A stretch of 34,805 nt of DNA from a virus. Position 1 is the stretch's first letter, and the number at the start of each line of letters is the position of its first letter. The position numbers and the translations under genes were made by a program. Shown piece after piece: positions 11,549 to 34,805 of this stretch. The stretch is taken from positions 1 to 34,805 of IMG/VR virus record IMGVR_UViG_3300033553_000200. One strand, given 5' to 3'. Below the pieces are notes generated by a model. The model was not told the origin of the DNA. It worked only from the letters and a program-made list of their open reading frames with translations, and searched no databases.

Positions 11549-11551
11549 GCC

Positions 11552-17149: not shown

Positions 17150-17182
17150 TCCCAAAACGCTTTATATCCCTCACCATCGCCG
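17150..17182 (+). promoter_or_regulatory. Candidate activator-dependent late promoter 2
   Basis: TCCCAAAACGCTTTA (17150-17164), CCCTC (17168-17172) and CCATCGCCG (17174-17182) repeat, in order, the blocks found at 9086-9124. It lies just upstream of the protease gene, where Mu has its C-dependent promoter PI. Spacing of the last block differs by 6 bp between copies. Transcription from here would give a very short leader, since the ATG is at 17202. The rest of 16981-17149 shows no feature. Confidence 0.55.
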
Positions 17183-17201
17183 GGCCCGGCAATCTGGCCC
17201 C

Positions 17202-18335: not shown

Positions 18336-18371
18336 TCAGCGACCCCTAACGGATAACGGGAGGAAACTCTA

Positions 18372-18806: not shown

Positions 18807-18820
18807 TCAGGAGTAATCCG

Positions 18821-19723: not shown

Positions 19724-19750
19724 GGCGTTAGGCGAACGATGAAGCGTTAG

Positions 19751-19780
19751 AAAACCCGCTCCCGCGTGGGGCGGGTTTTT
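19751..19780 (+). terminator. Strong rho-independent terminator after the capsid gene
   Basis: AAAACCCGC (19751-19759) pairs with GCGGGTTTT (19771-19779), with CCC/GGG pairing inside and a GCGT loop, followed by TTTTT and then C. It stands between the major capsid gene and the next late gene on the same strand. It could reduce transcription of tail genes relative to capsid. No promoter was recognised just after it, so readthrough is probably needed. Confidence 0.88.
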
Positions 19781-19793
19781 CAGGAGACCGATC

Positions 19794-20264: not shown

Positions 20265-20270
20265 CCGGCA

Positions 20271-20675
20271 ATGTACTGCACCCTGGATGACCTGGTTAAG
20301 CGGTTTGGTGAAGACGAGCTGCTGGATCTGGCCCACGACGAGACCGGCCTGGCAGTGGATCAGGCGGTGGTAGACCGGGCGATTGAAGATGCCAGTGGAG
20401 AAATGGACGGCTTTATCTCTGCTGCTGGCTACCCGGTACCGATGGACCCGGTGCCGCTGATCGTCACCGCCTACTGCGCAGACATCGCCCGGTACCGCCT
20501 GTACGACGACCGCGCCACCGAACAGGTGCGCAAGCGCTACGAGGATGCCGTGAAGTTTCTGCGCTCGGTCTCCAGGGGTGACGTAAAGCTGGGCGCCCGG
20601 GTGCATGCCGAGTCGTTGGTGGGTGATGTGCAGTTTGACGCCGGCCGCCGCGTGTTCGGTGGAGGTGGCTTCTGA
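20271..20675 (+). CDS. DUF1320 neck/adaptor protein (Mu gp36-like)
   Basis: The 134-residue helical protein starts MYCTLDDLVKRFGEDELLDL and contains ASGEMDGFISAAGYPVPMDP and ADIARYRLYDDRATEQVRKR, matching DUF1320/Mu gp36. Such proteins are head-completion adaptors with the HK97 gp6-type fold. GAGGAG lies nine bases before the ATG. Confidence 0.93.
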   Translation: MYCTLDDLVKRFGEDELLDLAHDETGLAVDQAVVDRAIEDASGEMDGFISAAGYPVPMDPVPLIVTAYCADIARYRLYDDRATEQVRKRYEDAVKFLRSVSRGDVKLGARVHAESLVGDVQFDAGRRVFGGGGF

Positions 20676-21235
20676 TGCTGGCCGAAGTGGAAGACGCAAT
20701 CATTGAGCGCTGCAAGCTGGTTCTTGGCGCCCACGTGAAAACCGTGGAAGACCTGCCCGGCCGCTGGAGCGAAGCAACCTTGCGCGCGGCCCTGCGCAAA
20801 ACACCAGGTGTTTATGTGGCTTGGGGTGGCGGCAAGAGCCCGTCGAACACCACCAATCAGGCCGCCGTTGGTGGGCGTTACGTGGTGTACGTGGTGACGT
20901 CCCACGCCAGTGGCGAACGTGAACGCCGCCGGGGCAATGACCGCCAGGTGGGTGCCTATGAGCTGGTCGAGCGCGTAGCCCCAGCCGTCCACGCCCTGAA
21001 AGTGGAAGGCATTGGCACTCTGGAGCTGGACAGCATCGACAACCTGTATTCAGAGCGCTTCGACAAGGAAGGGGTGGTGATTTACGGCATTGCCTACCGC
21101 CTGCCGCTGCACTTCAAGCCACCGCTCGACGCCAACACCCTGAACGATTTTGAGCTTTATACCGGCACCCACCAGGTGGGTGGCGACAACGATCCCGAGC
21201 TGCAAAGCCGGGCAGAGCTGAACCAGGAGGAATAA
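20675..21235 (+). CDS. DUF1834 neck protein (Mu gp37-like)
   Basis: The 186-residue product fits DUF1834/Mu gp37, with LAEVEDAIIERCKLVLGAHV at the start, GGRYVVYVVTSHASGERERR in the middle and IYGIAYRLPLHFKPPLDANT near the end. It probably acts as a head-tail joining or tail-terminator-type protein. Its start overlaps the DUF1320 stop by one base. Confidence 0.9.
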   Translation: MLAEVEDAIIERCKLVLGAHVKTVEDLPGRWSEATLRAALRKTPGVYVAWGGGKSPSNTTNQAAVGGRYVVYVVTSHASGERERRRGNDRQVGAYELVERVAPAVHALKVEGIGTLELDSIDNLYSERFDKEGVVIYGIAYRLPLHFKPPLDANTLNDFELYTGTHQVGGDNDPELQSRAELNQEE

Positions 21236-21238
21236 TCC

Positions 21239-21478
21239 GTGGCCCGCAAACCGATTTACGTACAGCCGCGCCAGCGTAACCCCAAAAAGCCCGCCGAAGG
21301 TGTGCTGCAGGTGCGCCGGGAAAACGGCAAACCCATTCCGGCAGCTGGTGCCTGGGTAGAGCCCAACAAGTACATCCGCCGCCGCATGCGTGATGGCGAC
21401 CTGGTGGAGGCGAGGCCGCCGAAGGAAGCGAGTGCCAAACCCGCCGCAAAATCCACCAACACCCAGGCTGAGGAGTAA
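21239..21478 (+). CDS. DUF2635 small protein (Mu gp38-like)
   Basis: The 79-residue product begins at GTG after GAGGAA. The sequence GKPIPAAGAWVEPNKYIRRR followed by MRDGDLVEA is the DUF2635/Mu gp38 pattern. The tail is Ala/Lys-rich. It lies directly before the sheath gene, as in Mu. Its function is unknown, presumably tail assembly. Confidence 0.9.
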   Translation: MARKPIYVQPRQRNPKKPAEGVLQVRRENGKPIPAAGAWVEPNKYIRRRMRDGDLVEARPPKEASAKPAAKSTNTQAEE

Positions 21479-21481
21479 GCG

Positions 21482-22960
21482 ATGATTACCGCCGGTGTTT
21501 TTAACAACATCCCCAGCGCCCTGCGCCTGCCGGGCGTGTTCATTGAATTTGATGATCGCCTGGCCAATAGCGGCGTGTGGCAAACCCGCCTGCTGGTTCT
21601 GGGCCAGCGTAATGAAAATGGCTCAAAGCAGGCCCTGGAGCTGGACCGCGTAACCAGCCCAGAGCAGGCCGAGCGCTACTACGGCCGTGGCTCCATGATT
21701 GCCGAGATGCTGCGCGCAGCACTGGCCGTTGACCCCTACATGGAAACCATGGCCATCCCCCTGGATGACGACCCAGCTGCTGCGGCCGCAAGTGGCAGCA
21801 TCACTGTGTCCGGTACCGCCACGGTTCCCGGCACTCTGGCGCTATACATTGCCGGTTACCGCGTGCGGGTGGGCGTTGCTGCCACTGACCAGGCCTCAGA
21901 CGTAGCCCAGTCCATTGTGGATGCCGTCAACGCTAATGACCGCCTGCCGGTAACGGCGGTGGTGAATGGTACCGAGCCGGCCAAAGTGGATCTGACTTGC
22001 CGCTGGAAAGGCGAAACTGGCAACGATATCGACCTGGACCTGAACCGCCAGGACGAAGAGGCGCCAAGCGGCATTTCCGTCACGTTCCAGGCTATGGCCA
22101 ATGGCGCAGCCAATCCCGATCTGGCCGAGGCCATCGATGTAATGGGTGACCAGTGGTACCACTACATTGCGTGCCCCTACAACGACACCGCCAACCTGGG
22201 CGAACTCAAGGATGAGCTGGACCGCCGCTATGGGCCGATGGTGCAGCAGGGTGGCCGTGCGTTTGGCGCGTTCCGGGGCACCCATTCGGAAACCGGTGAT
22301 TTCGGTGGCGGCCACAACAGCCCGCACCTGACCGTGATGGGTACCAACCACGCGGCCAGCCCCACCTGGTTGTGGGCTGCAACCTACGCCATTGTTGCTG
22401 CCGGCTCGCTGACCAACGACCCGGCCCGCCCGCTTCAGTACCTGGAATTGCCCGGCCTGATTGGCCCGCGCACCTCCAAGGCGTGGATCAACTCAGAGCG
22501 CAACCTGCTGCTATTTGATGGCATCGCCACATTCACCGTGGCCGATGATGGCGCCGTGCGGATCGAGCGTGAAATTACCACGTTCCAGCAAAATGACGCC
22601 GGCATTGCCAGTGACGCCTACCTGGACATCCAGGTACCCGAAACCCTGGAACGCATCCGATACGAGCAGATCAGCCGCATTCTCTCAAAGTATCCGCGCC
22701 ATAAGTTGGCAGAGGACGCGGACGCCGCGCTGTTTGGTGCAGGCCAGAAAATCATGACTCCGAAGGTGGGCGAGTCGGAAATGCTGGACCTCTATGAGGA
22801 CTTTATCCAGGCCGGCTGGGCCCAAGACTACGCAGGCTACAAGAAAAGCCTGTCCGCCAACATCGACCCGGACAACCCCAAGCGCCTGAATATGATCGAC
22901 TCGCCGAAGCTGGTTGGTCAGTACCGCACCCACGCGATGCAGACCCAGTTCCGGCAGTAA
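21482..22960 (+). CDS. Contractile tail sheath protein (Mu L, gp39-like)
   Basis: This is a 492-residue sheath subunit. The N-terminus (NNIPSALRLPGVFIEFDDRL) and the segments SGSITVSGTATVPGTLALYI, MGTNHAASPTWLWAATYAIV and the C-terminal WAQDYAGYKKSLSANIDPDN are typical of Mu-type sheaths. Its presence shows the phage is a myovirus. GAGGAG lies six bases before the ATG. Confidence 0.96.
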   Translation: MITAGVFNNIPSALRLPGVFIEFDDRLANSGVWQTRLLVLGQRNENGSKQALELDRVTSPEQAERYYGRGSMIAEMLRAALAVDPYMETMAIPLDDDPAAAAASGSITVSGTATVPGTLALYIAGYRVRVGVAATDQASDVAQSIVDAVNANDRLPVTAVVNGTEPAKVDLTCRWKGETGNDIDLDLNRQDEEAPSGISVTFQAMANGAANPDLAEAIDVMGDQWYHYIACPYNDTANLGELKDELDRRYGPMVQQGGRAFGAFRGTHSETGDFGGGHNSPHLTVMGTNHAASPTWLWAATYAIVAAGSLTNDPARPLQYLELPGLIGPRTSKAWINSERNLLLFDGIATFTVADDGAVRIEREITTFQQNDAGIASDAYLDIQVPETLERIRYEQISRILSKYPRHKLAEDADAALFGAGQKIMTPKVGESEMLDLYEDFIQAGWAQDYAGYKKSLSANIDPDNPKRLNMIDSPKLVGQYRTHAMQTQFRQ

Positions 22961-22994
22961 CGGTCACACCTTAAACGCAGGAGACTAAAACATC

Positions 22995-23357
22995 ATGAGC
23001 GAAGGTCAAATTACCGGCAAGGCCACAGTAAGAGTGGATGGCGAGGAGCTGCTTGCCGACGTTGACGCAACCCTGAATGTCGGGGGAGTGAGTCGTCAGT
23101 CTGTAATGGGTCCGCGCGGGGTGCAGGGGTTCCAAGAGAGCCCGGAAGCTCCCGCGCTTTCTACCACCGTGCGCCACACCGCCAAGACGGACCTGATAGC
23201 CCTGGGCAAGATCACCGGTGCAACGGTTCTCTTTGAGACCGACACCGGCGATACCTACATGCTGCGCCGTGCATTCGTAACGGACACCGTCGAGCTGAGC
23301 AGCGGGAACGGCAACGTGCGCCTGAACTGGGGCGCCTTTGGAGTGGAGCGCATCTAA
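22995..23357 (+). CDS. Tail tube protein (Mu M, gp40-like)
   Basis: The 120-residue product matches Mu-type tail tube proteins: GKATVRVDGEELLADVDATL at the start, GPRGVQGFQESPEAPALSTT in the middle and ETDTGDTYMLRRAFVTDTVE near the end, with a mostly beta prediction. It forms the inner tube inside the sheath. It shares its last base with the start of the chaperone gene. Confidence 0.94.
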   Translation: MSEGQITGKATVRVDGEELLADVDATLNVGGVSRQSVMGPRGVQGFQESPEAPALSTTVRHTAKTDLIALGKITGATVLFETDTGDTYMLRRAFVTDTVELSSGNGNVRLNWGAFGVERI

Positions 23358-23758
23358 TGTCCAAAGCCCGAGTAACCATCACGCTAATCCACGGCCTGGC
23401 CATCGGCGAGGACACCCACAAGGAAGTGGTGCTGCGCGAGCCCACCGCCGGCGACATTCTGGACGCCCAGGAGGCCTCCGAGCGCCTGATGATGGTGCCC
23501 GCGCCAGACGGCGGCTTTGAGCCCATGCTGATCTCCAGCCCATCACGCAGCAGCATGGAAGTGCTGCGCCGGCAGATCGTCACCATCGGCGATATCAGCG
23601 GCCCGCTGGATGAAAAGCTGCTGCGCAAGCTGGACCCGGAAGACCTGAATTTGCTGTTGCAGAAAACCGGCAACCTCAGCGCCGGCAGCATTAACCAGGT
23701 GCAGGAGGAGCTGGTGAAGCGGGGGCGAGACGAAGGCGGCCGCCCGGACGCTGACTAA
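23357..23758 (+). CDS. Tail assembly chaperone, unshifted product (Mu gp41-like)
   Basis: The 133-residue zero-frame product corresponds to Mu gp41, the short tail assembly chaperone made before a tape measure. It has an N-terminal beta part (KARVTITLIHGLAIGEDTHK) and a helical C-terminal part (EKLLRKLDPEDLNLLLQKTG). A GGGGGCGA slippery site lies ten codons before its stop. The longer frameshift product is listed separately. Confidence 0.92.
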   Translation: MSKARVTITLIHGLAIGEDTHKEVVLREPTAGDILDAQEASERLMMVPAPDGGFEPMLISSPSRSSMEVLRRQIVTIGDISGPLDEKLLRKLDPEDLNLLLQKTGNLSAGSINQVQEELVKRGRDEGGRPDAD

Positions 23759-23873
23759 AGCCATTTGGCGCGTCGCCACACACACCGGGTGGAGCGAAGC
23801 CGAGCAACGCGGCTTCACCATCCGGCAACTCTACCGCTACATCCACCAAACCCGTAAGGAACCCGAAGAATGA
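23357..23873 (+). CDS. Tail assembly chaperone, -2 frameshift fusion product
   Basis: GGGGGCGA at 23721-23728 is the same slippery octamer known for the Mu tail chaperone frameshift, which is -2. If ribosomes read through CGA (residue 124) and slip back two bases, they enter a frame open to the TGA at 23871-23873. It adds 48 residues, including KAIWRVATHTGWSEAEQRGF. The resulting protein has about 172 residues. The extension has good coding character and fills the otherwise empty 23759-23869 gap, and its stop overlaps the tape-measure ATG. The exact slip point is inferred. Confidence 0.85.
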
Positions 23874-25720
23874 GTGAATTGCGCGCCAGTGTGGTCATGA
23901 ACCTGCGGGGCAACCTGGAGCAAAACGCCAGGCGTTATGAAGGCTCCATGCGCCAGCTGTCCACCAACGGCAGCCGGCACATGAATCGCCTGCAGCGTGT
24001 GACCGGCGGCCTTGGCCGCACTCTGGACCGGGTGGGCAACCGCTGGACCGCCCTGGCCACCGGTGCCGCTGGCGTGCAAACCATCCGTTCACTCACCGCG
24101 CTGGAAGAGCGCTTTACCCGCCTGGGTATCCAGTCAAACCAGAGTGCCGAGCAGATGGACGAGCTGCGCCGGCAGATCTTCGACACCGCCCGGGAAGCGG
24201 AGATCCGCGTAGACCCGTCCCAGATCACCAGCGCCATTGAATCAATCGTGGAGAAAACCGGTGATCTGGAGTTTGCCCGGCAGAACATCCGCAACATCGG
24301 CCTGGCCATCAGTGCTACCGGTGCTGAGGGTTCCAACATCGGGGAGATCCTGGCCGAATTCCAGAAGATGGATATCCGGTCCATGGACCAGGTGCTGGAA
24401 ACGATCGACACGCTGAACCAGCAGGGCAAAGAAGGCGCATTCACGCTGCAGAATCTGGCATCCCTGGGCCCGCGAGTGGTTACCGCATACACCGCCGTTG
24501 GCCGGGAAGGGCCGCAGGCTATCCGCGAGATGGGCGCAGCCCTGCAGGTAATTCGCCAGGGTACCGGCAGCTCTGAGCAGGCCGCAACCGCGTTTGAAGC
24601 CTTGCTGCGGACATTCCAGCAGGCGGACAAGATCAAGCAGCTGCGTAAGAACGGCATACGTCTGTACGACCCGGAAGAGCTGGAGAAAGGGCGCCAGGTG
24701 TTGCGTCCGATTAACGAGCTGATGGTGGAGATTGTCGAGGCCGTTGATGGTCGCGGGTCTCTGCTGTCCGGAGTGTTCGACGCCGAAGCAATGCGGGCCT
24801 TTAATGCCGCCCTGGGCGAATACAACCGGACAGGTGGGGTTGAGAGCCTCGATAAGTTTCTGCAAGTCCAGGGCAACGGCAACACCACCATTAACGATTC
24901 CGCCCGGGCAGCCGACACCGCCGCCGGTGCAATGCGCAGCCTGGCTGGGGCGTGGGAATCGTTCGCAGATGAAAACCTCACCGACTACATCCAGGGCCTG
25001 GCCGATGCGCTGAACAGCCTGGACCAGGAAACGGTTGACGCCTGGCTTTCGTTCGGTGGTAAAGCCGCTGCGAGCCTTGCGGGCCTGTACGCCTTGCGCT
25101 CAGTGGGCAAGCTGGCCGGTGATCTGGGCCGTGGTGGCCGCTCTTTGATGCGTGGCCGCACCACTGGCGGTGTGGCTGGCGGGCTTGGCGGTGCCGTGGG
25201 CAGCATGGCACCGGTGCCGGTTTACGTGACCAACTGGGGAGGTGGTCCCGGTGGCACTGGCGGTGCCGGCGGCCGCCGTGGTGGTCGCCCGAGTGTTCCA
25301 AGGCACCGGGTAAACCGTCTTAGCAATTGGCAGGTGGCGCGCCGCGCCCCATCTGTTCGGATGATTCCCGCCGCCGGATTGGGCGCACTGGGTACAGCCG
25401 GCCTTGCCGTTGGTGGCGCCGGCGCCGCTGGCTACGGCGTGGGCACACTGCTCAACGAAAGCTTGTTGACCGATAAAGGCCCGCTGGGCACTCAGACCGG
25501 CCGGGAGATCGGCGAAGCCATTGGCGAGAGTGTGGCAAAAACGCTGGCGTTCTTCGGCAACGACGAAGCCCAGAGAGCGGTGCGCTTCAATGAGCAGCGT
25601 GAGAGCACCGTTAGAATTCAGATTGATCAGGAGGGGCGCGTTAGAGGTGCCACCCCAGAAAAAGGCCCGGGCGGGCCTGATCTGGATGTGGATTCAGGAT
25701 CATGGGGGTTGTGGCCGTGA
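23870..25720 (+). CDS. Tail tape measure protein (Mu gp42-like)
   Basis: This 616-residue protein sets tail length. The N-terminal part is helical and coiled coil (RGNLEQNARRYEGSMRQLST, TALEERFTRLGIQSNQSAEQ). The central tape-measure region contains the GPRVVTAYTAVGREGPQAIR segment and a Gly-rich stretch at about 430-480. A hydrophobic region follows at about 500-530 (AAGLGALGTAGLAVGGAGAA). The length is close to Mu gp42 (about 600 residues), implying a tail of Mu-like length. ATG overlaps the stop of the frameshift product. Confidence 0.94.
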   Translation: MSELRASVVMNLRGNLEQNARRYEGSMRQLSTNGSRHMNRLQRVTGGLGRTLDRVGNRWTALATGAAGVQTIRSLTALEERFTRLGIQSNQSAEQMDELRRQIFDTAREAEIRVDPSQITSAIESIVEKTGDLEFARQNIRNIGLAISATGAEGSNIGEILAEFQKMDIRSMDQVLETIDTLNQQGKEGAFTLQNLASLGPRVVTAYTAVGREGPQAIREMGAALQVIRQGTGSSEQAATAFEALLRTFQQADKIKQLRKNGIRLYDPEELEKGRQVLRPINELMVEIVEAVDGRGSLLSGVFDAEAMRAFNAALGEYNRTGGVESLDKFLQVQGNGNTTINDSARAADTAAGAMRSLAGAWESFADENLTDYIQGLADALNSLDQETVDAWLSFGGKAAASLAGLYALRSVGKLAGDLGRGGRSLMRGRTTGGVAGGLGGAVGSMAPVPVYVTNWGGGPGGTGGAGGRRGGRPSVPRHRVNRLSNWQVARRAPSVRMIPAAGLGALGTAGLAVGGAGAAGYGVGTLLNESLLTDKGPLGTQTGREIGEAIGESVAKTLAFFGNDEAQRAVRFNEQRESTVRIQIDQEGRVRGATPEKGPGGPDLDVDSGSWGLWP

Positions 25721-25722
25721 TT

Positions 25723-26235
25723 TCAGCTCTGGTGCAACTGAGGGTGCCGGCCCTCTTCAATCTTCAGGATCTTAACGCGGGTGGCCGGTTCATCGGTTCT
25801 AAGCTCGGTCACCAGTGTTACGTCTTTCTCGGTCAGGTACACAGTTTCTATGTGCGGGCCCGCGCCGCGCTGGTCGCAAAGACCAACGTTGTCACGGCCG
25901 TGAGAGCAGTAGATGTACTCAACTCCGCCGGTGCCTGCTTGCTGTTCGCAATCCTTTGGCTCAGCCCAGGTGCCACAGTCGCCAACCTCGGGGATATCGA
26001 ACTGGAACTGCTTGAGAACGTCCAGCCTCCATTCCCGGTAACTGTAATCGCGCCCGTACTGGAGCCCCAATTCTCCGGCCAGATCCCGGTATTTGGAGAC
26101 CTCGCCCTGGTCAACGTTGACCGCCCCTGGGTTTTCTTCCTGTGCGGCGCTTCCGGGGAAGGCGACCGGGGAGAATGCCAGCAGGGCCGAAAAAAGGCCG
26201 GCGATTGCCAGCGGCACACGAACGAATTTCAACAT
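25723..26235 (-). CDS. Antisense moron: small secreted protein
   Basis: The 170-residue product lies on the strand opposite to all other late genes, convergent with the tape measure gene (2-bp gap) and divergent from the N-like gene. ATG 26235 has GGAGG about eight bases upstream; an upstream in-frame ATG at 26271 is less likely. A signal peptide is clear (KFVRVPLAIAGLFSALLAFS ... GSAAQ). The mature part has four cysteines (CGTW, CEQQ, CSHG, CDQR) suited to two disulfides. No family is recognised. Position and strand suggest a lysogenic-conversion gene acting in the periplasm or outside. A weak -10 (TATGCT) is at 26260-26265. Confidence 0.82.
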   Translation of the reverse strand: MLKFVRVPLAIAGLFSALLAFSPVAFPGSAAQEENPGAVNVDQGEVSKYRDLAGELGLQYGRDYSYREWRLDVLKQFQFDIPEVGDCGTWAEPKDCEQQAGTGGVEYIYCSHGRDNVGLCDQRGAGPHIETVYLTEKDVTLVTELRTDEPATRVKILKIEEGRHPQLHQS

Positions 26236-26270
26236 GACTTTCCCTCCATCTTCTGCAGGAGCATAGCCCA

Positions 26271-27431
26271 ATGAGCTGGAGAGATCGAATCGGAGACGGT
26301 ACCGCCGAATTCCGGGGCATTGTATTGCACCTGGAGCGCGGTTCTATTTCAGCCGGCCGCCGTGTGCAGGTGCACGAATACCCGATGCGTGATGAGGCCT
26401 ACGCCGAAGATCTGGGCCTGGCGGCGCGGGAATGGCAGATCACCGGCTACCTGATCGGCGATGACTACGACGTAGAGCGCACCCGCCTGACGGATGCCCT
26501 GGACCTTCCGGGCGCGTTTGAGATGCGCCACAGCTACTACGGCACCCACAAAGTGGTGGTGATTGGCGAACCCCGTATCACCGAAACTACCCGGGAAGGC
26601 GGCATGGCCCGGGTGAACATGACCGTGCTGCGGGCGGATGACAAGCCCCGCTATCCCCGCACGGTGGCCGACACCCAGAAGATAGTGGAGGCTCGGGCCG
26701 CCGAGGCGGAAACCGCTCTTAAAGAGGATTTTGAAGAGGATTACAACGTTCTGGATCTTGCGGCCGATCGCGTGGCCGAGGTGGAGAAAACCATTCTGGA
26801 TGCGCTGCAGGATGCCGAGGGCGTGGTCAGCGACGTAACCGGCAAGATTGCAAGGGTAATCCGCACGCCAGGTGATCTGGCCGGCGCCCTCATAGACACC
26901 ATCAGCGGCATTGCCAACCAGCTCCAGGAGCCAATGCGAGCGTTACGCGGCTACGAGGCCCTGTTTGATGCGGGTGAAACAGAGTCTGAATCCGCAGCAG
27001 CGCCGGCCGATGCCCGGCAGCAGGCCCAGGCACAGACCGCCGCAGTCAACTTGATCCGCAGAGGCTCAGCCGTGGCAGCGGCCAAGGCGTCTGCCCAGTG
27101 GAACTACGACACCCGGCAGGATGCCCAGGACGCCCTGGAAAAGATTCACCAGGGCCTGACCGAACCGCTGGAGACATCCGCAACGCTGAACCCCGATACC
27201 GTCCAGCGCTTGGTGTTGTTGCGCGCGGCCGTGGTGGATGACCTGCGCAAGCGCGGCGCCGCGCTGCCAGAGCTGACCGTGTACGAGACCCGACGGGCCA
27301 TGCCCGCCCTGGTTATTGCTCAACGGCTGTATGGCGATGCCAACCGCGCCGATGAAATCGTCACCCGTAACCGCGTACGCCATCCCGGCGCGGTACCAGG
27401 TGGCGCAGAGCTGGAGGTGCTGAGTGAGTGA
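26271..27431 (+). CDS. DNA circularisation / tail protein N (Mu gp43-like)
   Basis: The 386-residue protein has the DNA circularisation N-terminal domain of Mu gpN: SWRDRIGDGTAEFRGIVLHL, GGRRVQVHEYP-like region, DLGLAAREWQITGYLIGDDY and MRHSYYGTHKVVVIGEP. The rest is mostly helical. In Mu the protein is part of the tail/baseplate hub region. AGGAG lies nine bases before the ATG. The start is divergent from the moron. Confidence 0.92.
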   Translation: MSWRDRIGDGTAEFRGIVLHLERGSISAGRRVQVHEYPMRDEAYAEDLGLAAREWQITGYLIGDDYDVERTRLTDALDLPGAFEMRHSYYGTHKVVVIGEPRITETTREGGMARVNMTVLRADDKPRYPRTVADTQKIVEARAAEAETALKEDFEEDYNVLDLAADRVAEVEKTILDALQDAEGVVSDVTGKIARVIRTPGDLAGALIDTISGIANQLQEPMRALRGYEALFDAGETESESAAAPADARQQAQAQTAAVNLIRRGSAVAAAKASAQWNYDTRQDAQDALEKIHQGLTEPLETSATLNPDTVQRLVLLRAAVVDDLRKRGAALPELTVYETRRAMPALVIAQRLYGDANRADEIVTRNRVRHPGAVPGGAELEVLSE

Positions 27432-28464
27432 ACTGATTCTGCGCACCGATGGCCAGCGCCACGGCGGCTGGAAGACCGCGACCGTTCGCCTGGGGCTGCA
27501 GCAAATGGCAGACACCTTTGAGTTGAGCGTTACCGAGAAATGGGCTGACCAGCCAAAACGCCGCCCTCTGCGTACCAGCCAGGCAACAACGCTGGAGATT
27601 GATGGCGAGCGCGTGATTACCGGCCACATTGACGATGTGTTGCCGTCGTATGACGCGAAGAGCCATGAACTGGTGGTCAGCGGCCGCTCGAAAACCGCAG
27701 ACCTGGTGGATTGTTCCGGTACCGCCCAGCCAATCGAGACATCCCGAACCGTGCTGCAGGTGGCCCGCCAGCTGGCCCGGCCGTTCGGTGTAGAGGTGGT
27801 GGCCGAAGTGGATGTGGGCGCACCAATCCGCAACCTGGAAATAGAGCCCGGCCAGACCTACGGCGAGGCGCTGGCGCAGATCGCCAGTTACCGCGCCCTG
27901 ATCCTGGTGGCCGATGCTCAGGGCCGCTTGGTGATCACCCGCCCGCCCCGTGGCCGTCTGTCTACCGCCCTGGTGCTGGGTGAAAACATCCGCCGGGCCA
28001 GTGGCCGTTTCAGCGATCGGGACCGCTTCAGTGACGTGATCGTACAGGGCCAGAGCGTGGCCAGCGACGACGTGTGGGGCGAAACAGCCAGCGAGCCCGA
28101 AGGCCGCGCCAGAGATAAGGCTGTTGGCCGGTACCGTCCCACGCTGGTGCTGTGTGATACCGGCGTGGACCGCAGTTCTTGCAAGCAGCGCGCTGAATGG
28201 GAAGTGCGCCGCCGTTGGGGTGAATCCCGGGGCGTGACCTACACCGTGGCCGGCTGGCGGCATGCCGAAGGCGTATGGCGGCCGGGCTACCTGGTACCGG
28301 TGTATGACCCATGGCTGGAACTGGATGGCGTGGAATGGCTGATCACTGAAGTGCAGCTGATCCTGGATGAGCAAGGCGAGCGCGCGGAGATTCGTGTAGC
28401 CCCGCCAAGCAGTTTTGATCTGCAGGCCCAGCCGGAGCCCGAGCAAGAGGAGGACGCCTGGTGA
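27424..28464 (+). CDS. Baseplate hub protein P (Mu gp44-like)
   Basis: The 346-residue protein matches Mu gp44/P22-independent gpD-like hub proteins: ELILRTDGQRHGGWKTATVR at the N-terminus, then KSHELVVSGRSKTADLVDCS, and EPGQTYGEALAQIASYRALI in the core. It forms the trimeric hub on which the spike sits. The GTG start overlaps the N-like gene by 8 bp; a second GTG at 27428 is out of frame. Confidence 0.92.
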   Translation: MSELILRTDGQRHGGWKTATVRLGLQQMADTFELSVTEKWADQPKRRPLRTSQATTLEIDGERVITGHIDDVLPSYDAKSHELVVSGRSKTADLVDCSGTAQPIETSRTVLQVARQLARPFGVEVVAEVDVGAPIRNLEIEPGQTYGEALAQIASYRALILVADAQGRLVITRPPRGRLSTALVLGENIRRASGRFSDRDRFSDVIVQGQSVASDDVWGETASEPEGRARDKAVGRYRPTLVLCDTGVDRSSCKQRAEWEVRRRWGESRGVTYTVAGWRHAEGVWRPGYLVPVYDPWLELDGVEWLITEVQLILDEQGERAEIRVAPPSSFDLQAQPEPEQEEDAW

Positions 28465-29087
28465 ATCGTCGCGAAGCTTACAAGCTGCTGTCACCAATCT
28501 GGCGCCGGATGCGTCTGCTGATTAGCCGGGGTGTTGTCACCCTGAGCGATTCCGCCGGCGGCCTCCAGCGCCTGCAGGTGAAGCTGCTGAAGGGCGAGAC
28601 CCGCAATGTGGAACACATGGAGCCGTACGGCTTCACCGCTCGTCCATTGCAAGGTGCGGAGACCATAGCGGCGGCCATAGGCGGTGTGCGTGGCCACCTG
28701 GTGGCTCTTGTGGCCAGTGACCGCCGGCACCGTCGTAAAGGCCTGGCTGAGGGCGAAGTGTGTTTGTACACCGATGAAGGCGACGAGCTGGTTTTCAATC
28801 GCGGCCGAATTGTGCGGCTGAAGGCCGGCAACGCGGTGGAGGTGACAGCCCCGCGCGTAAAGGTGTTTGCCAGTACATCGGTCACCCTGGACACCCCGGA
28901 AACCACCTGCACCGGAAACCTGAAAGTACTCAAGAGCATCACCGCCACCATGAACGTGTCAGCCGGCGGCGGAGTACAGGACGGCGTGGGCACCATGAGC
29001 AGCATGCGCAGCACCTACAACGGCCATAACCATGATGAAAACGACAACGGCGGCCCGACCAACACCCCTAACCAGGAGATGAGCTGA
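28461..29087 (+). CDS. Baseplate spike protein (gpV, Mu gp45-like)
   Basis: The 208-residue central spike protein has an N-terminal OB-type part (LQRLQVKLLKGETRNVEHME, GFTARPLQGAE). A beta-helical shaft follows (VEVTAPRVKVFASTSVTLDT, TGNLKVLKSITATMNVSAGG), and the tip carries GHNHDEND with H189 and H191. In Mu gp45 and P2 gpV the tip holds a metal bound by such His-X-His motifs. Length is close to Mu gp45 (197 residues). It pierces the outer membrane on contraction. Confidence 0.94.
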   Translation: MNRREAYKLLSPIWRRMRLLISRGVVTLSDSAGGLQRLQVKLLKGETRNVEHMEPYGFTARPLQGAETIAAAIGGVRGHLVALVASDRRHRRKGLAEGEVCLYTDEGDELVFNRGRIVRLKAGNAVEVTAPRVKVFASTSVTLDTPETTCTGNLKVLKSITATMNVSAGGGVQDGVGTMSSMRSTYNGHNHDENDNGGPTNTPNQEMS

Positions 29088-29527
29088 TGGACGTGCTTCT
29101 GGATGTGATTGGCGGTGAGCTGGACGTGGCCCTGAACGAAGGCGGAGACCTGCAGAGTGACGAAGGCATGCGCACGGCCGTGGCGCTGTCACTGCTGAGC
29201 GATCGCCGGGCCCTGCCGGATGACGAGCTGCCGGGCGGCGGCACCGACCGCCGGGGCTGGTGGGCAGACGCCCTGGCCGATCGGCAAGACGATCAGTTCG
29301 GTTCCCGCCTGTGGCTGCTGGGCCGTGAGAAAGATCTGGCTAGCGTGCGTGACCGGGCAGAAACCTACGCCCGCGAGTCCCTGGAATGGCTGCTGGAAGA
29401 CAAGGTGGCTGAATCCTTGGAGGTGAGCGCTACCACAGTCTCTAACGACACGCTGCAGATCCGCGTGGTGGTGATTCGCGGCGATGGCCCCCGCCTGGCC
29501 GAACAATTTCAATATGTGTGGAGGTAG
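29087..29527 (+). CDS. Baseplate wedge protein (GP46 family, W-like)
   Basis: The 146-residue product fits the Mu gp46 family, with DVALNEGGDLQSDEGMRTAV, ALSLLSDRRALPDDELPGGG and RRGWWADALADRQDDQFGSR. It is related to gp25/W-type baseplate wedge lysozyme-fold proteins. It shares one base with the spike stop. Confidence 0.92.
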   Translation: MDVLLDVIGGELDVALNEGGDLQSDEGMRTAVALSLLSDRRALPDDELPGGGTDRRGWWADALADRQDDQFGSRLWLLGREKDLASVRDRAETYARESLEWLLEDKVAESLEVSATTVSNDTLQIRVVVIRGDGPRLAEQFQYVWR

Positions 29528-29529
29528 TA

Positions 29530-30591
29530 ATGCCCTGGCAGTCACCAACATTAACTGAACTGGCGGAAGGCGTACGCGCCGATATCCGCGCCCGCCGGCC
29601 AGAGGCCCGCCCGGAACTGCGCCGCTCGCTGCTGCGCGTGGTCGCCGATGTGGACGCCGGTGTAGCCCACGGCCTCTATGGATACCTGGCCTGGCTTGCA
29701 AAGCAGCTCATGATCGATACAGCCGATGAGGAATGGCTGGAGCGCTGGGGCGGCATCTGGCAAGTGGTACGCGATGGTGCCTTTAAGGCCACTGGCCCCG
29801 TGCCTGTGACCGGTACTGCCGGGGCGCAGGTGCTGCAGGGCGCTGAGTTGGAGCATAGCACCGGTGCTGTCTACATCGTGGACGAAACCGTAACCCTGGA
29901 CGCCCAGGGCGTAGCAACCCTGCAGGTGACAGCCGAGGAAGCCGGGGCGCCGGGCAATCTGGGCGCGGGCGAAAAGCTGCAATTCGTGGAGCCTGCTGAC
30001 GGCGTAGACGGTGAGGCCGTCCTGGGCAGCGAAGGGCTTACCGGCGGTGCGGACAAGGAAGACCTTGAACGCTACAGAGCCCGCGTGCTTCGCCGCATCC
30101 GCCGCCCACCACATGGCGGCAACGAAGACGATTACATCACCTGGGCTGAGGAAGCTCACCCCGACATCACCCGCGTGTGGGTGTACCCGCGTCAGCCCGA
30201 TATCGGTGAAGTAACCCTACGCCTGGTGTGTGACGAGCTGGACGACATCATCCCTACGGATGCCGTGATTCAAGCGGTTGAAGAACATATTGACGAAGAG
30301 CGCCCGGTAACCGCCAGGGGCTTCTATGTCGTCAAACCAACGCCGGCGCCGTTAGATCCGCAGATCCGTCTAACGCCCGACACCCAGGAAGCGCGCGACC
30401 GCGTAACCGCCGCACTCAAGGACTTTCTGACCGATGTGGCGAAGCCTGGTGGCACTCTATATAGAGAGCAGCTTTCAGGGGTGATCTACGTGGCCGCCGG
30501 CGAAAGCCGCCACGAACTGGTGATGCCCGCCGACAACGTGGAGCACGCAATTAACCAGATTCCTGTACTGGGGGCGCCGACATGGCTCTGA
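29530..30591 (+). CDS. Baseplate protein J (Mu gp47-like)
   Basis: The 353-residue protein matches baseplate J-like Mu gp47: PWQSPTLTELAEGVRADIRA, LERWGGIWQVVRDGAFKATG, GEKLQFVEPADGVDGEAVLG, and RRIRRPPHGGNEDDYITWAE. I chose the ATG at 29530 because GGAGGT (29520-29525) lies at good distance; a start at 29518 would overlap the ribosome site. It is a core wedge component and overlaps the gp48-like gene by 10 bp. Confidence 0.94.
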   Translation: MPWQSPTLTELAEGVRADIRARRPEARPELRRSLLRVVADVDAGVAHGLYGYLAWLAKQLMIDTADEEWLERWGGIWQVVRDGAFKATGPVPVTGTAGAQVLQGAELEHSTGAVYIVDETVTLDAQGVATLQVTAEEAGAPGNLGAGEKLQFVEPADGVDGEAVLGSEGLTGGADKEDLERYRARVLRRIRRPPHGGNEDDYITWAEEAHPDITRVWVYPRQPDIGEVTLRLVCDELDDIIPTDAVIQAVEEHIDEERPVTARGFYVVKPTPAPLDPQIRLTPDTQEARDRVTAALKDFLTDVAKPGGTLYREQLSGVIYVAAGESRHELVMPADNVEHAINQIPVLGAPTWL

Positions 30592-31172
30592 GCCGTGAGC
30601 AATACCGCGACCTGATGAACATGCTGGCACCGCCAGGCCGGGCGCTGCCGCAGGCACCGGACGCCAACTGGCAAAAGCTGACCTATGCCCGCGCCGGCCT
30701 GTTCCAGCGGGTAGACGCCCGCGCGGATCTGCTCCTGGAAGAGGCTGACCCCGGCACCGCCTATGAACTTCTGCCCGATTGGGAGCGCGTGGCCGGCCTG
30801 CCGGACCCCTGCGTGAAGCGCGAGCAAACCATAGCCGAACGCCGAGCCGCACTGCTGCGCGTGCTCACCGGTACCGGTGGTGCCAGCCGGAAGTACTTTG
30901 AAGGCTTAGCGGCAGACCTGGGCTATGACATCACCGTGGAGGACTACACCCCGTTCACCGTGGCGGACACCGTAGATAAGCCTGTCTACGGCCTGGAATG
31001 GCGCTGGACCTGGACCGTCCGCGCGCCCGAACAAACCGTGAATGTTTTCACCACAAAGAGCACCGTCAGCGAGCCCCTGGCGACATGGGGCAACGACCGG
31101 CTGGAGTGCGTCATAAGCCGCCTGAAGCCGGCTCACACCCTTGTTTTATTTGCATACGGAGAGAATGACTGA
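30582..31172 (+). CDS. Tail protein (DUF2313, YmfQ/Mu gp48-like)
   Basis: The 196-residue protein shows the DUF2313/YmfQ pattern: SREQYRDLMNMLAPPGRALP, then FQRVDARADLLLEEADPGTA, TAYELLPDWERVAGLPDPC. The C-terminal half ends in ISRLKPAHTLVLFAYGEND. It links the wedge to the fibre. In Mu the fibre gene S follows it; here a short fibre-like gene and then the DGR follow. Confidence 0.93.
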   Translation: MALSREQYRDLMNMLAPPGRALPQAPDANWQKLTYARAGLFQRVDARADLLLEEADPGTAYELLPDWERVAGLPDPCVKREQTIAERRAALLRVLTGTGGASRKYFEGLAADLGYDITVEDYTPFTVADTVDKPVYGLEWRWTWTVRAPEQTVNVFTTKSTVSEPLATWGNDRLECVISRLKPAHTLVLFAYGEND

Positions 31173-31480
31173 TGGTTGATAGAGTCTATCAGCGCAACGC
31201 AATAGAAAATGCCCCGCAGCCGCCGGCAACCCCGAGCGCGGGTTACCCCACAGACGGCAACCCGGATCAGGGGATTGCAGCAACGCTGCCGGGTGCGTAC
31301 TGGTTTCACATGGTTACCGAGAGCCTGCGCCGGTTGGTGGTGGATGCTGGTCGGGTTCCGGATCACCAGGATTCAGGCCTGGTGTCTAAGTCGGTACTGC
31401 GCTATGTCGATGATGCAGTGCCTGAGGATGAATACCGAATGATCGTAAAGAATGGAATTCCAATGTTGGAGAAGATCTGA
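31172..31480 (+). CDS. Short protein like the N-terminus of a tail fibre
   Basis: The 102-residue product carries the segment GIAATLPGAYWFHMVTESLR followed by RLVVDAGRVPD, a pattern usual at the N-terminus of Mu/P2-like tail fibres, but it ends shortly after. It overlaps the gp48-like stop by one base. It may be an adapter that attaches the variable protein to the baseplate, replacing a full fibre. It is more AT-rich than the upstream tail genes. Confidence 0.8.
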   Translation: MVDRVYQRNAIENAPQPPATPSAGYPTDGNPDQGIAATLPGAYWFHMVTESLRRLVVDAGRVPDHQDSGLVSKSVLRYVDDAVPEDEYRMIVKNGIPMLEKI

Positions 31481-31812
31481 TGCATGGTTATCCGAAAGTG
31501 ATTAACACCCGACAGGATATCGACCACTTGTTAGCATTTCTGGGTAGTAAGTGGGCTACCCAGCAAAACATCGACAAGGCGCTCGATTACCTGCAGGGGC
31601 TCAAAGACGGTACTCAGTATTATGAGTTTGACCGAGTGCTGGGCGCCAATGAGGAACCTGATGGAGATTATCCTGACTATCTCGTTCTTACCGGCGAGGA
31701 GGGCGATCGCCGCCAGCTGGCTCTGGTGCATAACCCGAGCGCCAAGCTTTATCGGCTCGGCCTAACGTTGGACGACGTGGATCAATTGATGGCAACCCTG
31801 GAGTCTCAATAA
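31480..31812 (+). CDS. Uncharacterised protein before the variable protein
   Basis: The 110-residue acidic protein is not recognised. The N-terminal half is helical (NTRQDIDHLLAFLGSKWATQ, NIDKALDYLQGLKDG), and a beta-rich part (YYEFDRVLGANEEPDGDYPD, YLVLTGEEGDRRQLALVH) follows. It overlaps the preceding stop by one base and ends one base before the variable protein. It could be a small assembly chaperone for the tail tip or a structural piece. The region is AT-richer than its neighbours. Confidence 0.75.
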   Translation: MHGYPKVINTRQDIDHLLAFLGSKWATQQNIDKALDYLQGLKDGTQYYEFDRVLGANEEPDGDYPDYLVLTGEEGDRRQLALVHNPSAKLYRLGLTLDDVDQLMATLESQ

Positions 31813-31813
31813 T

Positions 31814-32860
31814 ATGGAAAGCGGCGAACGAATAAGTATGCCTGCGATGGCTGCAGGATTTGCGTCTTTGCTGGGGCAGATAGCAAAAGGCGATGGCGAT
31901 ACAGTTAATGTGCCGGAAGGCATGATCAACATTGGGGGTAATGGTCGCGGCTATTTGCTTCAGGCTGTGGCCAACTGGAACCCCCTGACCAACAACGACG
32001 GCACCTTCTCATCTCTCGGCCTGGGCGACGACATCTGCATCTATGCAGCCCAGTCCGCAACCGGCGTTGCCGACCTGATCGCCAGCAAAAATACCACCTT
32101 CCCGGACGGCTATACCGCAGACAACACCCGCAAAATCGGCGGCTTCCACGTTGGCCGGGTCCGCCCGTTTTCGGAGCGCTATAACGCATCGTATGTGCCA
32201 GCCGTAGGCATCGTGCCGAACAGCGTGTGGGATCTGCACCACCGCCCAGTGTGCGACCCGAGCGGCTTTGCCGAAATGCCTGACGGCCGGTGGATCTCCA
32301 TCTACCTGCTATCCGAAGGCTCCGGTACCGGCGCCGGTGTTGTCCCTGTCAGTCGATACGGCGCAACGCCAATCAAAGACGACATTTATGCCCGGAAGGA
32401 TTTCCCGAACCTGCTGCAAAACGCAGGCATGTACGCCCCGGATGTGCAGCTGCTTCGTTGTTACGCCCAGGGCGCGCCCCAGGGCAGCGACACCAACAAC
32501 GACACCGCCTGGAGCGCCACTAGCAACCCCGGGCCGACTACCACCGGCGCAGTCGCCAAGGCCGTCAGCCAGTTCAACATAGTGGATGCCGTCGGCAACC
32601 TCTGGGACTACCTATCCACCGAGTACAACACAGGCACAGCGTTTAACTGGGATCGATCCGTAGTCAACACCGGCATTGATTCCAGCCACCCGCGTGGTGA
32701 GGTCTACCACGATAACTGGCGCAGCGCCATCGGCGGAGGCAACTTCGACAGCGGCGGCCGTGGCGGCGCCGAGTGCGTGTACTGGAACAACGATCCGTGG
32801 GGCTCGTACGGCAGTGTTGGTGTTCGTGGCGTCAGTGGCCCCCTGCCCCGTGGCGCGTGA
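31814..32860 (+). CDS. DGR variable protein, C-type-lectin-like (Mtd-type)
   Basis: This 348-residue protein is the DGR target. Its C-terminal third has the C-type-lectin/FGE-like pattern FNIVDAVGNLWDYLSTEYN, SAIGGGNFDSGG, GAECVYWNNDPWGSYGS, and ends VGVRGVSGPLPRGA. Residues S313, G315, G317, Y323, D327, G330, Y332 and S334 correspond to adenine-containing TR codons and differ from TR. All belong to the ligand-facing surface in known DGR lectins. The N-terminal half probably links it to the tail. It takes the place of Mu fibres, so receptor binding is the likely role. The C-terminal 11 bp overlap avd. Confidence 0.93.
   Translation: MESGERISMPAMAAGFASLLGQIAKGDGDTVNVPEGMINIGGNGRGYLLQAVANWNPLTNNDGTFSSLGLGDDICIYAAQSATGVADLIASKNTTFPDGYTADNTRKIGGFHVGRVRPFSERYNASYVPAVGIVPNSVWDLHHRPVCDPSGFAEMPDGRWISIYLLSEGSGTGAGVVPVSRYGATPIKDDIYARKDFPNLLQNAGMYAPDVQLLRCYAQGAPQGSDTNNDTAWSATSNPGPTTTGAVAKAVSQFNIVDAVGNLWDYLSTEYNTGTAFNWDRSVVNTGIDSSHPRGEVYHDNWRSAIGGGNFDSGGRGGAECVYWNNDPWGSYGSVGVRGVSGPLPRGA
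32718..32837 (+). repeat. DGR variable repeat (VR)
   Basis: The 120 bases align without gaps to the TR at 33263-33382 (offset 545). They differ at nine places: 32751, 32757, 32763, 32780, 32792, 32801, 32802, 32807 and 32814. TR has A at all nine; VR has G seven times and T twice. The 23 bases at 32815-32837 are identical and form the likely initiation-of-homing (IMH) segment. The two next mismatches (32838, 32840) also face TR adenines. Confidence 0.97.
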
Positions 32861-33263
32861 TAGGGCCGCCCGGCAGGGCGGGCTGGAGCTTTTGAATCGA
32901 GCTGAGGACCTGGTCATGGAAATGGCCGGGCCGATACAGCGAATGCCCAGGAGTTACCGGCACAGGGCCGGCGCCATGCTCGAAGAGCGGTTGATGGAGC
33001 TGGCAGAGCTGATCATAGAAGCTGCGGCCTCTGGTCAGCCGAGCAAGGTCTACCGACTGCAGGAGCACATCCGGAAAGTGAAATTCCGGATATCAGTAGA
33101 GGCGAAAAAGGAACTGATTCGCCCGAAAGTGGCTGGCAGCGTGATGCGCGAGCCGAACCCTGAAGACGACAGGGATTTTGGCGGCTCGCTGTACCAGATT
33201 GAGGCCATGGTCGGAGCCTGGCGCGACAGGATCGACCAAAGAAAACGGGCCAAGGGGGTTTAG
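32850..33263 (+). CDS. avd: Avd, DGR accessory protein
   Basis: This is a basic four-helix-bundle-type protein of 137 residues from GTG 32850. Helices are visible as GGLELLNRAEDLVMEMAGPI, SYRHRAGAMLEERLMELAEL, KVYRLQEHIRKVKFRISVEA and SLYQIEAMVGAWRDRIDQRK. Avd forms a pentamer that binds the reverse transcriptase and TR RNA. The start overlaps the variable protein by 11 bp; GTG 32835 is an alternative, and the longer frame upstream (to 32676) is only the VR read in another phase. The stop touches the first base of TR. Confidence 0.88.
   Translation: MARDRAARQGGLELLNRAEDLVMEMAGPIQRMPRSYRHRAGAMLEERLMELAELIIEAAASGQPSKVYRLQEHIRKVKFRISVEAKKELIRPKVAGSVMREPNPEDDRDFGGSLYQIEAMVGAWRDRIDQRKRAKGV
32866..32881 (+). 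other. Hairpin downstream of VR
   Basis: CCGCCC (32866-32871), loop GGCA, and GGGCGG (32876-32881) form a six-pair GC hairpin 28 bases after the VR end. In BPP-1 a GC hairpin with a four-base loop just downstream of VR marks the target for homing. The loop here fits the GRNA pattern I recall for such elements. It lies inside the avd coding start, so its role is inferred. Confidence 0.5.
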
Positions 33264-33382
33264 GCGCAGCGCCATCGGCGGAGGCAACTTCGACAACGGC
33301 GACCGTGACGGCGCCGAGTGCGTGAACTGGAACAACAATCCGTGGAACTCGAACGGCAATGTTGGTGTTCGTGGCGTCAGTG
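33263..33382 (+). repeat. DGR template repeat (TR)
   Basis: This 120-base non-coding copy lies between avd and the reverse transcriptase. It holds 26 adenines, many in AAC/AAT or GAC triplets in the phase used by VR. Read in that phase it gives GGGNFDNGDRDGAECVNWNN and then NPWNSNGNVGVRG. Nine of the 26 adenines are substituted in VR. The AA-starting triplets can mutate to codons for up to 15 amino acids without stops. Confidence 0.96.
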
Positions 33383-33555
33383 ACACCCCACACATAGAGA
33401 GAGTGTCGAAAGTTCGGCACTACCTAGAACCCCTGAAGGGGGTCAGCCCCTTGGTCCGGGTCTCTCCCAGAGAAACCAAACCGTGAATTAGCGACCCGGC
33501 GCGAATAGGTCTGCCGAAAGCCCCGGGCTCGCTCCCTATCCATTTTGGAGCTGTA
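33383..33555 (+). ncRNA. DGR RNA spacer between TR and reverse transcriptase
   Basis: This 173-base non-coding spacer corresponds to the BPP-1 spacer RNA that binds Avd-RT and primes cDNA synthesis. Visible structures are an RNA hairpin GUGUCGAA (33403-33410) with UUCGGCAC (33413-33420), including one G-U pair, a GACAC/GTGTC pair (33382-33386 with 33401-33405 region) and a CCCCTGAAGGGG hairpin near 33429-33440. GGAG (33547-33550) serves the RT start. The exact RNA ends are not known. Confidence 0.6.
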
Positions 33556-34593
33556 ATGGGCAGGAAAGCCAAAAACCTGATTGAAGAAGTGGCGGACTGG
33601 AACAACCTGGTAGCCGCCCACAAATTGTGTCGGCGCGGTAAATCCCGAAACCGCGAAGTGCTGGAGTTTGAGTCTGATCTATGGGCAAGCCTGGGCGCGA
33701 TTCAGAACGAATTGCTCTGGGGCATGTACGAGATTGGCGACTACAGACACTTCCTGGTCTACGACCCAAAGCGCCGCGAGATATCCGCTGCACCCTACCG
33801 AGACAGAGTTGTGATGCAGGCCATCTGCCGCGTGTGCGAGCCGATATGGACCAACGCCCTGATTCCGGACACCTTCGCCTGCGTCCGGGGTCGAGGCGTT
33901 TACCAGGCCATACACCGCCTGCAAAGCTGGATGAGGTATTACCGCCGGCGCGGCGAAACAGCCTACGCACTACACATTGACGTGGCCGGGTTCTTTCGAA
34001 GCATCCCTCACGACGTAGCAAAGCGAGTGATTCGCCGCCGGATCGCCTGTCCGCTCACGCTAAAGGTGCTGGACAACATCATAGAAAGCATGCACTCCGG
34101 CGAACCTGGTATCGGAATCGCCACTGGCAACCTGCCCAGCCAATGGGTCGGCAACCTGACGCTGAACGAAGTGGACCAGGCAGCCAAGCGCAAAGGAGGC
34201 ATCACCCACTATATGCGCTACATGGACGACATCATGGTCCTGAGCGCTGATAAAGAGCAGCTGCGCCAGTGGCAAAGAGCCATCGAAATGGAGCTGCACA
34301 AGCTGGGCTTGCGCGCCGGTAAGGTCAACATCCGGGAGGCCGAAGGCGTTACCTACGTCGGATACCTGATCTGGAGCTTCGGGGCCTGCGTGAAAGGCCA
34401 AACCCGCCGGCGAATCCGCCGCCGGATGCGAGGCCTGCAAAGCAGCCTGGCCAAAGGCCATATCAGCAAATCCCGCGCCCGGGACACGCTGCAGTCGTGG
34501 CGGGCGCACTTGATTAAGGGCGAATGCCGAGGGTTCTGGCAGAGGCGGGTTGCTGAGTGGGAGGAGCGGGAGAGGCGGTTGCAGGATCGTTAG
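33556..34593 (+). CDS. DGR reverse transcriptase
   Basis: The 345-residue protein has the group II intron-like RT core of DGRs. Motifs are visible: RVVMQAICRVCEPIW (RT1/2), D142 in YALHIDVAGFFRSIPH (RT3), the DGR-type IGxxxSQ-like ATGNLPSQWVGN (191-196 core GNLPSQ, RT4), and Y222-M-D-D225 in THYMRYMDDIMVLS (RT5). A thumb with GVTYVGYLIWSFG and many arginines follows. There is no maturase or endonuclease domain. It copies TR RNA with errors at adenines. It is last before the right phage end, a place open to cargo genes. Confidence 0.97.
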   Translation: MGRKAKNLIEEVADWNNLVAAHKLCRRGKSRNREVLEFESDLWASLGAIQNELLWGMYEIGDYRHFLVYDPKRREISAAPYRDRVVMQAICRVCEPIWTNALIPDTFACVRGRGVYQAIHRLQSWMRYYRRRGETAYALHIDVAGFFRSIPHDVAKRVIRRRIACPLTLKVLDNIIESMHSGEPGIGIATGNLPSQWVGNLTLNEVDQAAKRKGGITHYMRYMDDIMVLSADKEQLRQWQRAIEMELHKLGLRAGKVNIREAEGVTYVGYLIWSFGACVKGQTRRRIRRRMRGLQSSLAKGHISKSRARDTLQSWRAHLIKGECRGFWQRRVAEWEERERRLQDR

Positions 34594-34616
34594 GGCGGCA
34601 TTTTCTTGCTTTTTTC

Positions 34617-34664
34617 GGTGCCAAATCCTCCGCAACATTGGGCCAAATCCGGCGCGCGTTTACA
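34617..34664. promoter_or_regulatory. Right end (attR) with two transposase-type sites
   Basis: R2 reads GGTGCCAAATCCTCCGCAAC (34617-34636), and R1 has GGGCCAAAT at 34640-34648. Both face outward, spaced 23 bp. R1 ends 17 nt (counting from its GCCAAA) before the terminal TTTACA at 34664, exactly like the first left site. The pattern matches the R1-R2 arrangement of Mu. The sequence 34594-34616 between RT and R2 shows nothing else. Confidence 0.82.
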
Positions 34665-34669
34665 ACACC
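34665..34669. repeat. Right copy of 5-bp target site duplication (ACACC)
   Basis: ACACC follows the terminal TTTACA and matches 137-141. It supports insertion by Mu-type transposition. Host sequence resumes with ATGGACACAATT, which continues the reconstructed empty site. Confidence 0.85.
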
Positions 34670-34696
34670 ATGGACACAATTTGGCCACAGCCAAAT

Positions 34697-34727
34697 AAAA
34701 AAGGCCTGCGTTTTCACGCAAGCCTTT
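34697..34727 (-). terminator. Terminator of the tRNA-Arg gene
   Basis: On the minus strand AAAGGCTTGCG, a TGAAAA loop and CGCAGGCCTTT form a hairpin with one mispair, followed by a run of T (34697-34702). It lies nine bases after the tRNA 3' end, in host DNA. The prophage ends 33 bp beyond this terminator, so the tRNA unit is undamaged. Confidence 0.85.
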
Positions 34728-34735
34728 GAAAATAA

Positions 34736-34805
34736 TGGCCCGCCCGTCAGGATTCGAACCTGAGACCTTCGCCTCCGGAGGGCGACGCTCTATCCAGCTG
34801 AGCTA
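34736..34805 (-). tRNA. tRNA-Arg (anticodon CCG), 5' end cut by window
   Basis: The minus strand reads a full D arm (GCTC...GAGC), anticodon stem TCGCC/GGCGA with loop CTCCGGA and anticodon CCG (34776-34778), T arm TCAGG-TTCGAAT-CCTGA, acceptor CGGGCGG, discriminator G and encoded CCA. Seventy bases are present; the first seven of the acceptor stem lie beyond the window. It is a host gene and was not used as an att site. Confidence 0.97.

Follow-up and report, generated by a model that had tools for sequence, protein, structure and literature searches.

The diversity-generating retroelement (DGR) of phage BPP-1, which unlike the phage studied here is to our knowledge not transposable, is ordered as mtd with its variable repeat (VR), avd, the template repeat (TR) and brt, the reverse transcriptase (RT) gene. 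The element described here shares this order, an Mtd-type target and a hairpin with a GRNA loop, and its RT is 35% identical to that of BPP-1. In BPP-1, efficient homing needs a GC-rich hairpin with a 5'-GRNA loop located 4-34 bp after the VR (PMC3240598).

DGRs on transposable Mu-like phages are already known and had been reported by 2013. The Bacteroides hankyphage is transposable and generates 5-bp duplications, as here; its DGR acts on a tail fibre, and VR mutagenesis has been measured both in cultures and in virions (PMC6199706, PMC12135933). Its backbone and host are unrelated to those described here, and its target is very large and reported to be unrelated to characterised proteins. 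Faecalibacterium phage Mushu is also Mu-like and carries a DGR with avd and RT near its right end, the activity of which has been measured (PMC5883640, PMC11792537); its main target, however, is a Hoc-like head decoration protein encoded downstream of the RT. The title of a 2013 paper by Toussaint (cited in PMC5883640) refers to Mu-like phages with DGRs in Firmicutes. Bacillus phage BalMu-1 (KP063902) is Mu-like, with a DGR-type RT (37.5% identical) that follows the baseplate genes near the right end; in contrast to the present phage, lysis genes come after the RT.

Chromohalobacter phage YPCBV-1 (OP380511; PMC9769972) is Mu-like and shows the same succession of a Gp48-type gene, two small ORFs, a variable protein (VP) gene, avd, a gap containing the TR, and RT. 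Its VP and RT are 49% and 44% identical to those described here, and its VR (34074-34199) and TR (34591-34716) are likewise 126 bp long, with 14/14 differences at adenines. It is a different species with a different host, and neither VR variants over a constant TR nor cassette exchange has been reported for it. The gene at 33159-34208 of this genome (our L007) encodes the variable protein of the DGR; its annotation is that of a SUMF1/EgtB/PvdO non-heme iron enzyme, and the authors of the genome discuss the gene as an auxiliary metabolic one (PMC9769972). Given the hankyphage, Mushu and YPCBV-1, the suggestion in a preliminary description of this locus that no well-studied example is known in this phage group has to be withdrawn.

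Less documented is a cassette shared with P2-like phages. Pseudoalteromonas phages ACA1 and ACA2, which differ from each other mostly in the VR, carry a DGR on a P2-like tail, an arrangement termed otherwise unobserved (PMC10612066). Unlike in the present element, their TR is translated within the RT gene, and their RT is just 32% identical. The RT of the Burkholderia P2-like phage KS5 was set aside as a precedent, since its authors argue against a DGR. Frequent DGR transfer has been inferred from metagenome surveys and recombination of targets has been proposed (PMC8144416); a limited literature search, with most subscription journals outside it, turned up no publication describing the exchange of a DGR between Mu-like and P2-like phages.

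Our analysis makes it very probable that the locus is a recently active DGR of BPP-1 type forming the receptor-binding end of a Marinobacter Mu-like myovirus, and that the C-terminal part of VP, avd, TR and RT have been exchanged as a unit with P2-like phages.

A Mu-like prophage in Marinobacter DNA

The window, meaning the whole stretch of 34,805 nucleotides analysed (IMG/VR record IMGVR_UViG_3300033553_000200), carries genes for MuA, MuB, portal, protease, capsid, sheath, tape measure, baseplate J and Gp48 in Mu-type order, the gene order of Mu itself being the yardstick. The features are listed in Table 1. With both MuA and MuB, TG...CA ends bordered by a 5-bp duplication, and a head and contractile-tail gene order, this is a Mu-like transposable phage.

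The match to an environmental relative, L003 (94% identical over 30060-34664), breaks off precisely after ...GCGCGTTTACA at 34664, and beyond this point the L003 flank is unlike that of the window, as it belongs to another insertion site; the right end was therefore placed at 34664. The left end was set at 142 because the match to a further relative, L015, begins exactly there. The motif TTTGGC lies at equal offset in both inverted prophage ends. Over 118-134 bp, the right flank shares 93-95% identity with five Marinobacter genomes, in which it adjoins a tRNA-Arg gene. The ends, the ACACC duplication and the Marinobacter flank therefore indicate an integrated (or headful-packaged) Mu-like phage, and this flanking sequence identifies Marinobacter as its host genus.

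Table 1. Positions of the prophage and of its DGR module in the window
Feature	Position	Strand	Basis or remark
Mu-like prophage, end to end (TG...CA)	142..34664	+	L015/L003 match limits and flanking ACACC
Target duplication ACACC, 5-bp	137-141 and 34665-34669		flanks of prophage
MuA-type transposase	1906..3990	+	phrog_310 1.6e-158; Pfam Mu-transpos_C, HTH_Tnp_Mu_1
MuB-type transposition ATPase	3995..4753	+	phrog_296 3.7e-57; Pfam AAA_22
Mu Gp48-like baseplate protein, final backbone gene ahead of receptor module	30582..31172	+	Pfam Phage_Mu_Gp48 4.2e-32
Small ORF, probable baseplate anchor (presumed N-terminal piece of split tail fibre)	31172..31480	+	position; G006 comparison
Small adaptor/chaperone-like ORF, 110 aa	31480..31812	+	precedes VP in every relative seen
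Variable protein (VP), Mtd-like, most probably receptor-binding	31814..32860	+	Pfam mtd_2nd 1e-21; Mtd chains
Segment common to P2-like contigs at high identity (VP C-terminal part, avd, TR, RT)	32019..34572	+	breakpoint scan; blast limits
Variable repeat (VR)	32718..32843	+	126-nt repeat; 11/11 differences at TR adenines
avd	about 32853-33263	+	phrog_3206; start codon uncertain; overlaps VP gene end
Hairpin after VR, putative homing signal	32864..32883	+	GRNA-type loop GGCA, 7/8 stem pairs
Template repeat (TR)	33263..33388	+	core shared unchanged with L003; 1-2 differing sites in L004-L006
DGR reverse transcriptase, YMDD intact	33556..34593	+	phrog_1423 7e-102; 8ub7_A 1.3e-45; Pfam RVT_1
Host flank, Marinobacter DNA; partial tRNA-Arg gene on - strand	34665..34805		identity to Marinobacter genomes

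The preliminary description had placed VP, VR, avd, TR and RT in BPP-1 order, on the strand of the late genes, at 31814-34593 of a Mu-like myovirus. All parts were recovered there on the plus strand, and matches to MuA, MuB, the Mu portal, Mu Gp48, baseplate J and the sheath bear out the phage context. The proposal that the cassette takes the place of the tail-fibre and G-segment region of Mu also agrees with the data: the VP module lies to the right of Gp48, no invertase match was found among the scanned ORFs, and 31000-34805 holds no long inverted repeat. An invertible tail-fibre segment with a Gin-type invertase is present in Mu and is not a defining character of the group. The RT gene stops 71 bp short of the right phage end.

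Its precisely placed ends, its host genus and the natural variants of its VR make this phage a well-delimited gammaproteobacterial example of a transposable phage with a DGR. A sister phage, G006 (L016/L034, 34301 bp), has the same Mu-like backbone at 87-89% DNA identity. Between the early genes, 7330-7600 aligns to relatives only as short pieces, some of them repeated, and window positions 7335-7415 match two places in L016.

The probable receptor module and its variation at adenines

Only two small ORFs separate the Gp48 and VP genes. The first, the probable anchor, retains its N-terminus in G006 while its C-terminus is exchanged along with the cassette. The product of the second possibly serves the receptor protein as an adaptor or chaperone; the ORF has homologues in YPCBV-1 (33.9% identical) and in two P2-like contigs, L005 and L006, and gave no family match in PHROG and Pfam searches. 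For its structure model (pLDDT 62) the best PDB match had E=0.13, and there was one weak match in a viral library, to an uncharacterised protein.

Residues 64-341 of VP match the solved Mtd variants (chains 1yu1-1yu4, E 3e-10 to 7.5e-9), and this homology spans the VR, located at the 3' end of what is by sequence an Mtd-type (C-type-lectin) target gene. Nine positions differ among the four solved Mtd variants in the ungapped stretch up to residue 341, and eight of these nine, compared by eye, also vary within the set of VPs from the window, L003, L005 and L006. The diversified surface of VP is therefore probably the same as in Mtd. An AlphaFold model of VP, based on four sequences, reached a mean pLDDT of 29 and was discarded.

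Mtd homology and gene position together make VP most probably a receptor-binding protein, and the part of the earlier proposal by which the DGR varies such a protein stands as most probable; that retrohoming does so rather than inversion is something that we infer. VP might instead be a virion surface adhesin for environmental or mucus-like material and not receptor-binding, as has been proposed for the Hoc-like DGR target of Mushu (PMC5883640), but this is very improbable, since the window target is Mtd-homologous and placed after the baseplate genes, and in P2-like relatives it follows the N-terminus of a tail-collar fibre.

VR and TR form the single outstanding direct repeat in the repeat search (126 nt, 91% identical, 545 nt apart). 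They differ at 11/28 A sites of the TR and at 0/98 other sites (Fisher p = 1e-8), with eight A to G, two A to T and one A to C changes, a comparison that rules out a chance repeat. The 3' end of the VR is A-poor and invariant, and no clear BPP-1-like (GC)14 IMH element was recognised there. The putative homing hairpin, GGCCGCCC-GGCA-GGGCGGGC, lies 20 bp after the VR; its counterparts are GGCCCCGC-GACA-GCGGGGCC in G006 and GGCCCCGC-GGCA-GCGGGGTC in YPCBV-1, so that the GRNA loop rule is kept while the stem sequences vary. The folding energy is unexceptional and would not by itself single out the site.

The Avd assignment comes from a weak match to the PHROG family 'Avd protein of DGR' (phrog_3206, 1.3e-8) and from a Pfam bAvd match (1.1e-4) under the cut-off of that family; a sequence search against solved structures gave no match. 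The RT is of DGR type with a catalytic YxDD motif, as judged from family matches and the motif itself, and the chain that it matches, 8ub7_A, is labelled 'Reverse transcriptase'. Assignment to a retron or group II intron was rejected, as the match to the phage DGR-type RT family is full-length and a TR/VR pair lies alongside. A pattern search found no RT relatives in a collection of species-representative genomes, and five Marinobacter genomes contain no close DGR RT, so the cassette is rare or under-sampled. A search among viral contigs gave four close relatives of the RT.

The TR core of L003 is identical to that of the window, whereas the VRs differ at 17 sites, 16 of which are TR adenines. 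With the TR core identical, these 17 differences are best explained by repeated mutagenic copying and not by drift, and the system has thus been active in nature. The VRs of L005 and L006 show the same adenine-biased pattern. Compared with its own TR, each VR analysed has 11-14 adenine differences, and the single non-adenine change lies at the 3' border in L003. Across loci, TR cores differ at 0-2 sites and VRs at 13-20, nearly all of them TR adenines.

The preliminary description had named fixed VRs together with an inactive RT in related genomes as evidence against an active element; the relatives compared have open RT frames, and their VRs differ almost solely at adenines of the TR. The DGR of the window is, on this comparative evidence, complete and apparently active. 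It might be an inactive relic, once functional but with a VR now fixed in this prophage: present activity is beyond the reach of one prophage sequence, and published DGRs are sometimes silent in a given culture (PMC11792537). We regard this as decidedly improbable in view of the open frames, the intact YMDD and the contrast between nearly constant TRs and divergent VRs.

For an active element the enzymatic steps can be proposed by analogy with BPP-1. The RT, together with Avd, would copy TR RNA and make errors at adenines; steered by VR/TR homology and the downstream hairpin, the cDNA would then take the place of the VR at the 3' end of the Mtd-like gene. Progeny would display differing receptor-binding surfaces.

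Probable exchange of the cassette with P2-like phages

A nearly identical cassette occurs in P2-like contigs (RT 97% identical, TR with one base different). Such contigs, L004, L005 and L006, come from three metagenomes. Upstream of the cassette L005 carries gp25, J, a Tail_P2_I protein and the N-terminus of a P2-type tail-collar fibre; in L004 a P2-type sheath and an FII tube follow the cassette; in L006 it lies between the fibre N-terminus upstream and a different sheath downstream. Judging by the differing flanks of these contigs and of the window, the cassette sits on no fewer than three backbones. Since the P2-like contigs span only 6-8 kb, their replication type was judged solely by the tail genes. 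By this reading they appear to be further, separate cases of a P2-like DGR beyond ACA1 and ACA2.

Hypervariable-repeat cassettes are hard to assemble, and contigs this short might be metagenome assembly chimeras formed at the repeated, variable cassette. This is scarcely probable: each of the three comes from a different metagenome, L004 and L005 are identical over 1483 bp, and in L006 a single contig spans both junctions, its cassette having 82.6% identity to that of the window and hence not being copied from it.

The boundary of the shared segment lies inside the VP gene. In a breakpoint scan done by codon, the mismatch between the window and L005 falls from 33% to the left to 9% to the right of about 32019, a step reached in 0/2000 permutations. 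It recurs within three bases in every pair of a Mu-like and a P2-like sequence, and L005 versus L006 gave no significant mismatch step in the same scan. The same drop is seen at fourfold-degenerate sites (adaptor 0.63, VP 0.33, avd 0.13, RT 0.24), which argues for recombination rather than protein-level selection. In the part to the right of 32019, the window lies roughly as near to P2-like L005 as to Mu-like L003.

The cassette might alternatively descend from a common source with no recent exchange, its DGR half being merely more conserved than the adaptor half. Functional constraint on VP and RT would act in this direction, and copying of the TR into the VR keeps that stretch similar. It is nevertheless unlikely, as the step is abrupt, falls at one site of the VP gene and is equally strong at fourfold-degenerate sites, and the backbones on each side are unrelated.

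Module exchange among phage backbones is the simplest account of these sequence comparisons. The C-terminal part of VP, avd, TR and RT would pass jointly from phage to phage, through recombination with P2-like phages, while the anchor, the adaptor and the N-terminus of VP would remain with the backbone; the route and direction of this exchange we infer. Frequent transfer of DGRs has been inferred in metagenome surveys (PMC8144416), and here the junction is visible. It is likely that DGR receptor modules act as interchangeable plug-ins in Marinobacter phages, the unit moving between the Mu-like and at least two P2-like backbones via a breakpoint in the receptor gene, so that phages would both swap the module and mutate it. 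Relatives bear this self-diversifying receptor module on tail architectures that are unrelated, which makes its spread and docking testable.

The cassette of the sister phage G006 differs from that of the window and stands nearer to the one in YPCBV-1. Its RT is 46% identical to the window RT, its small ORFs resemble those of YPCBV-1, and its VR and TR differ at adenines only (9/9). Its anchor ORF starts like that of the window and ends like that of YPCBV-1, with the swap junction inside.

Between the window and L003, both Mu-like, the VP gene shows another step near 32307, where the mismatch climbs from 2% to 9%; this is perhaps a second breakpoint.
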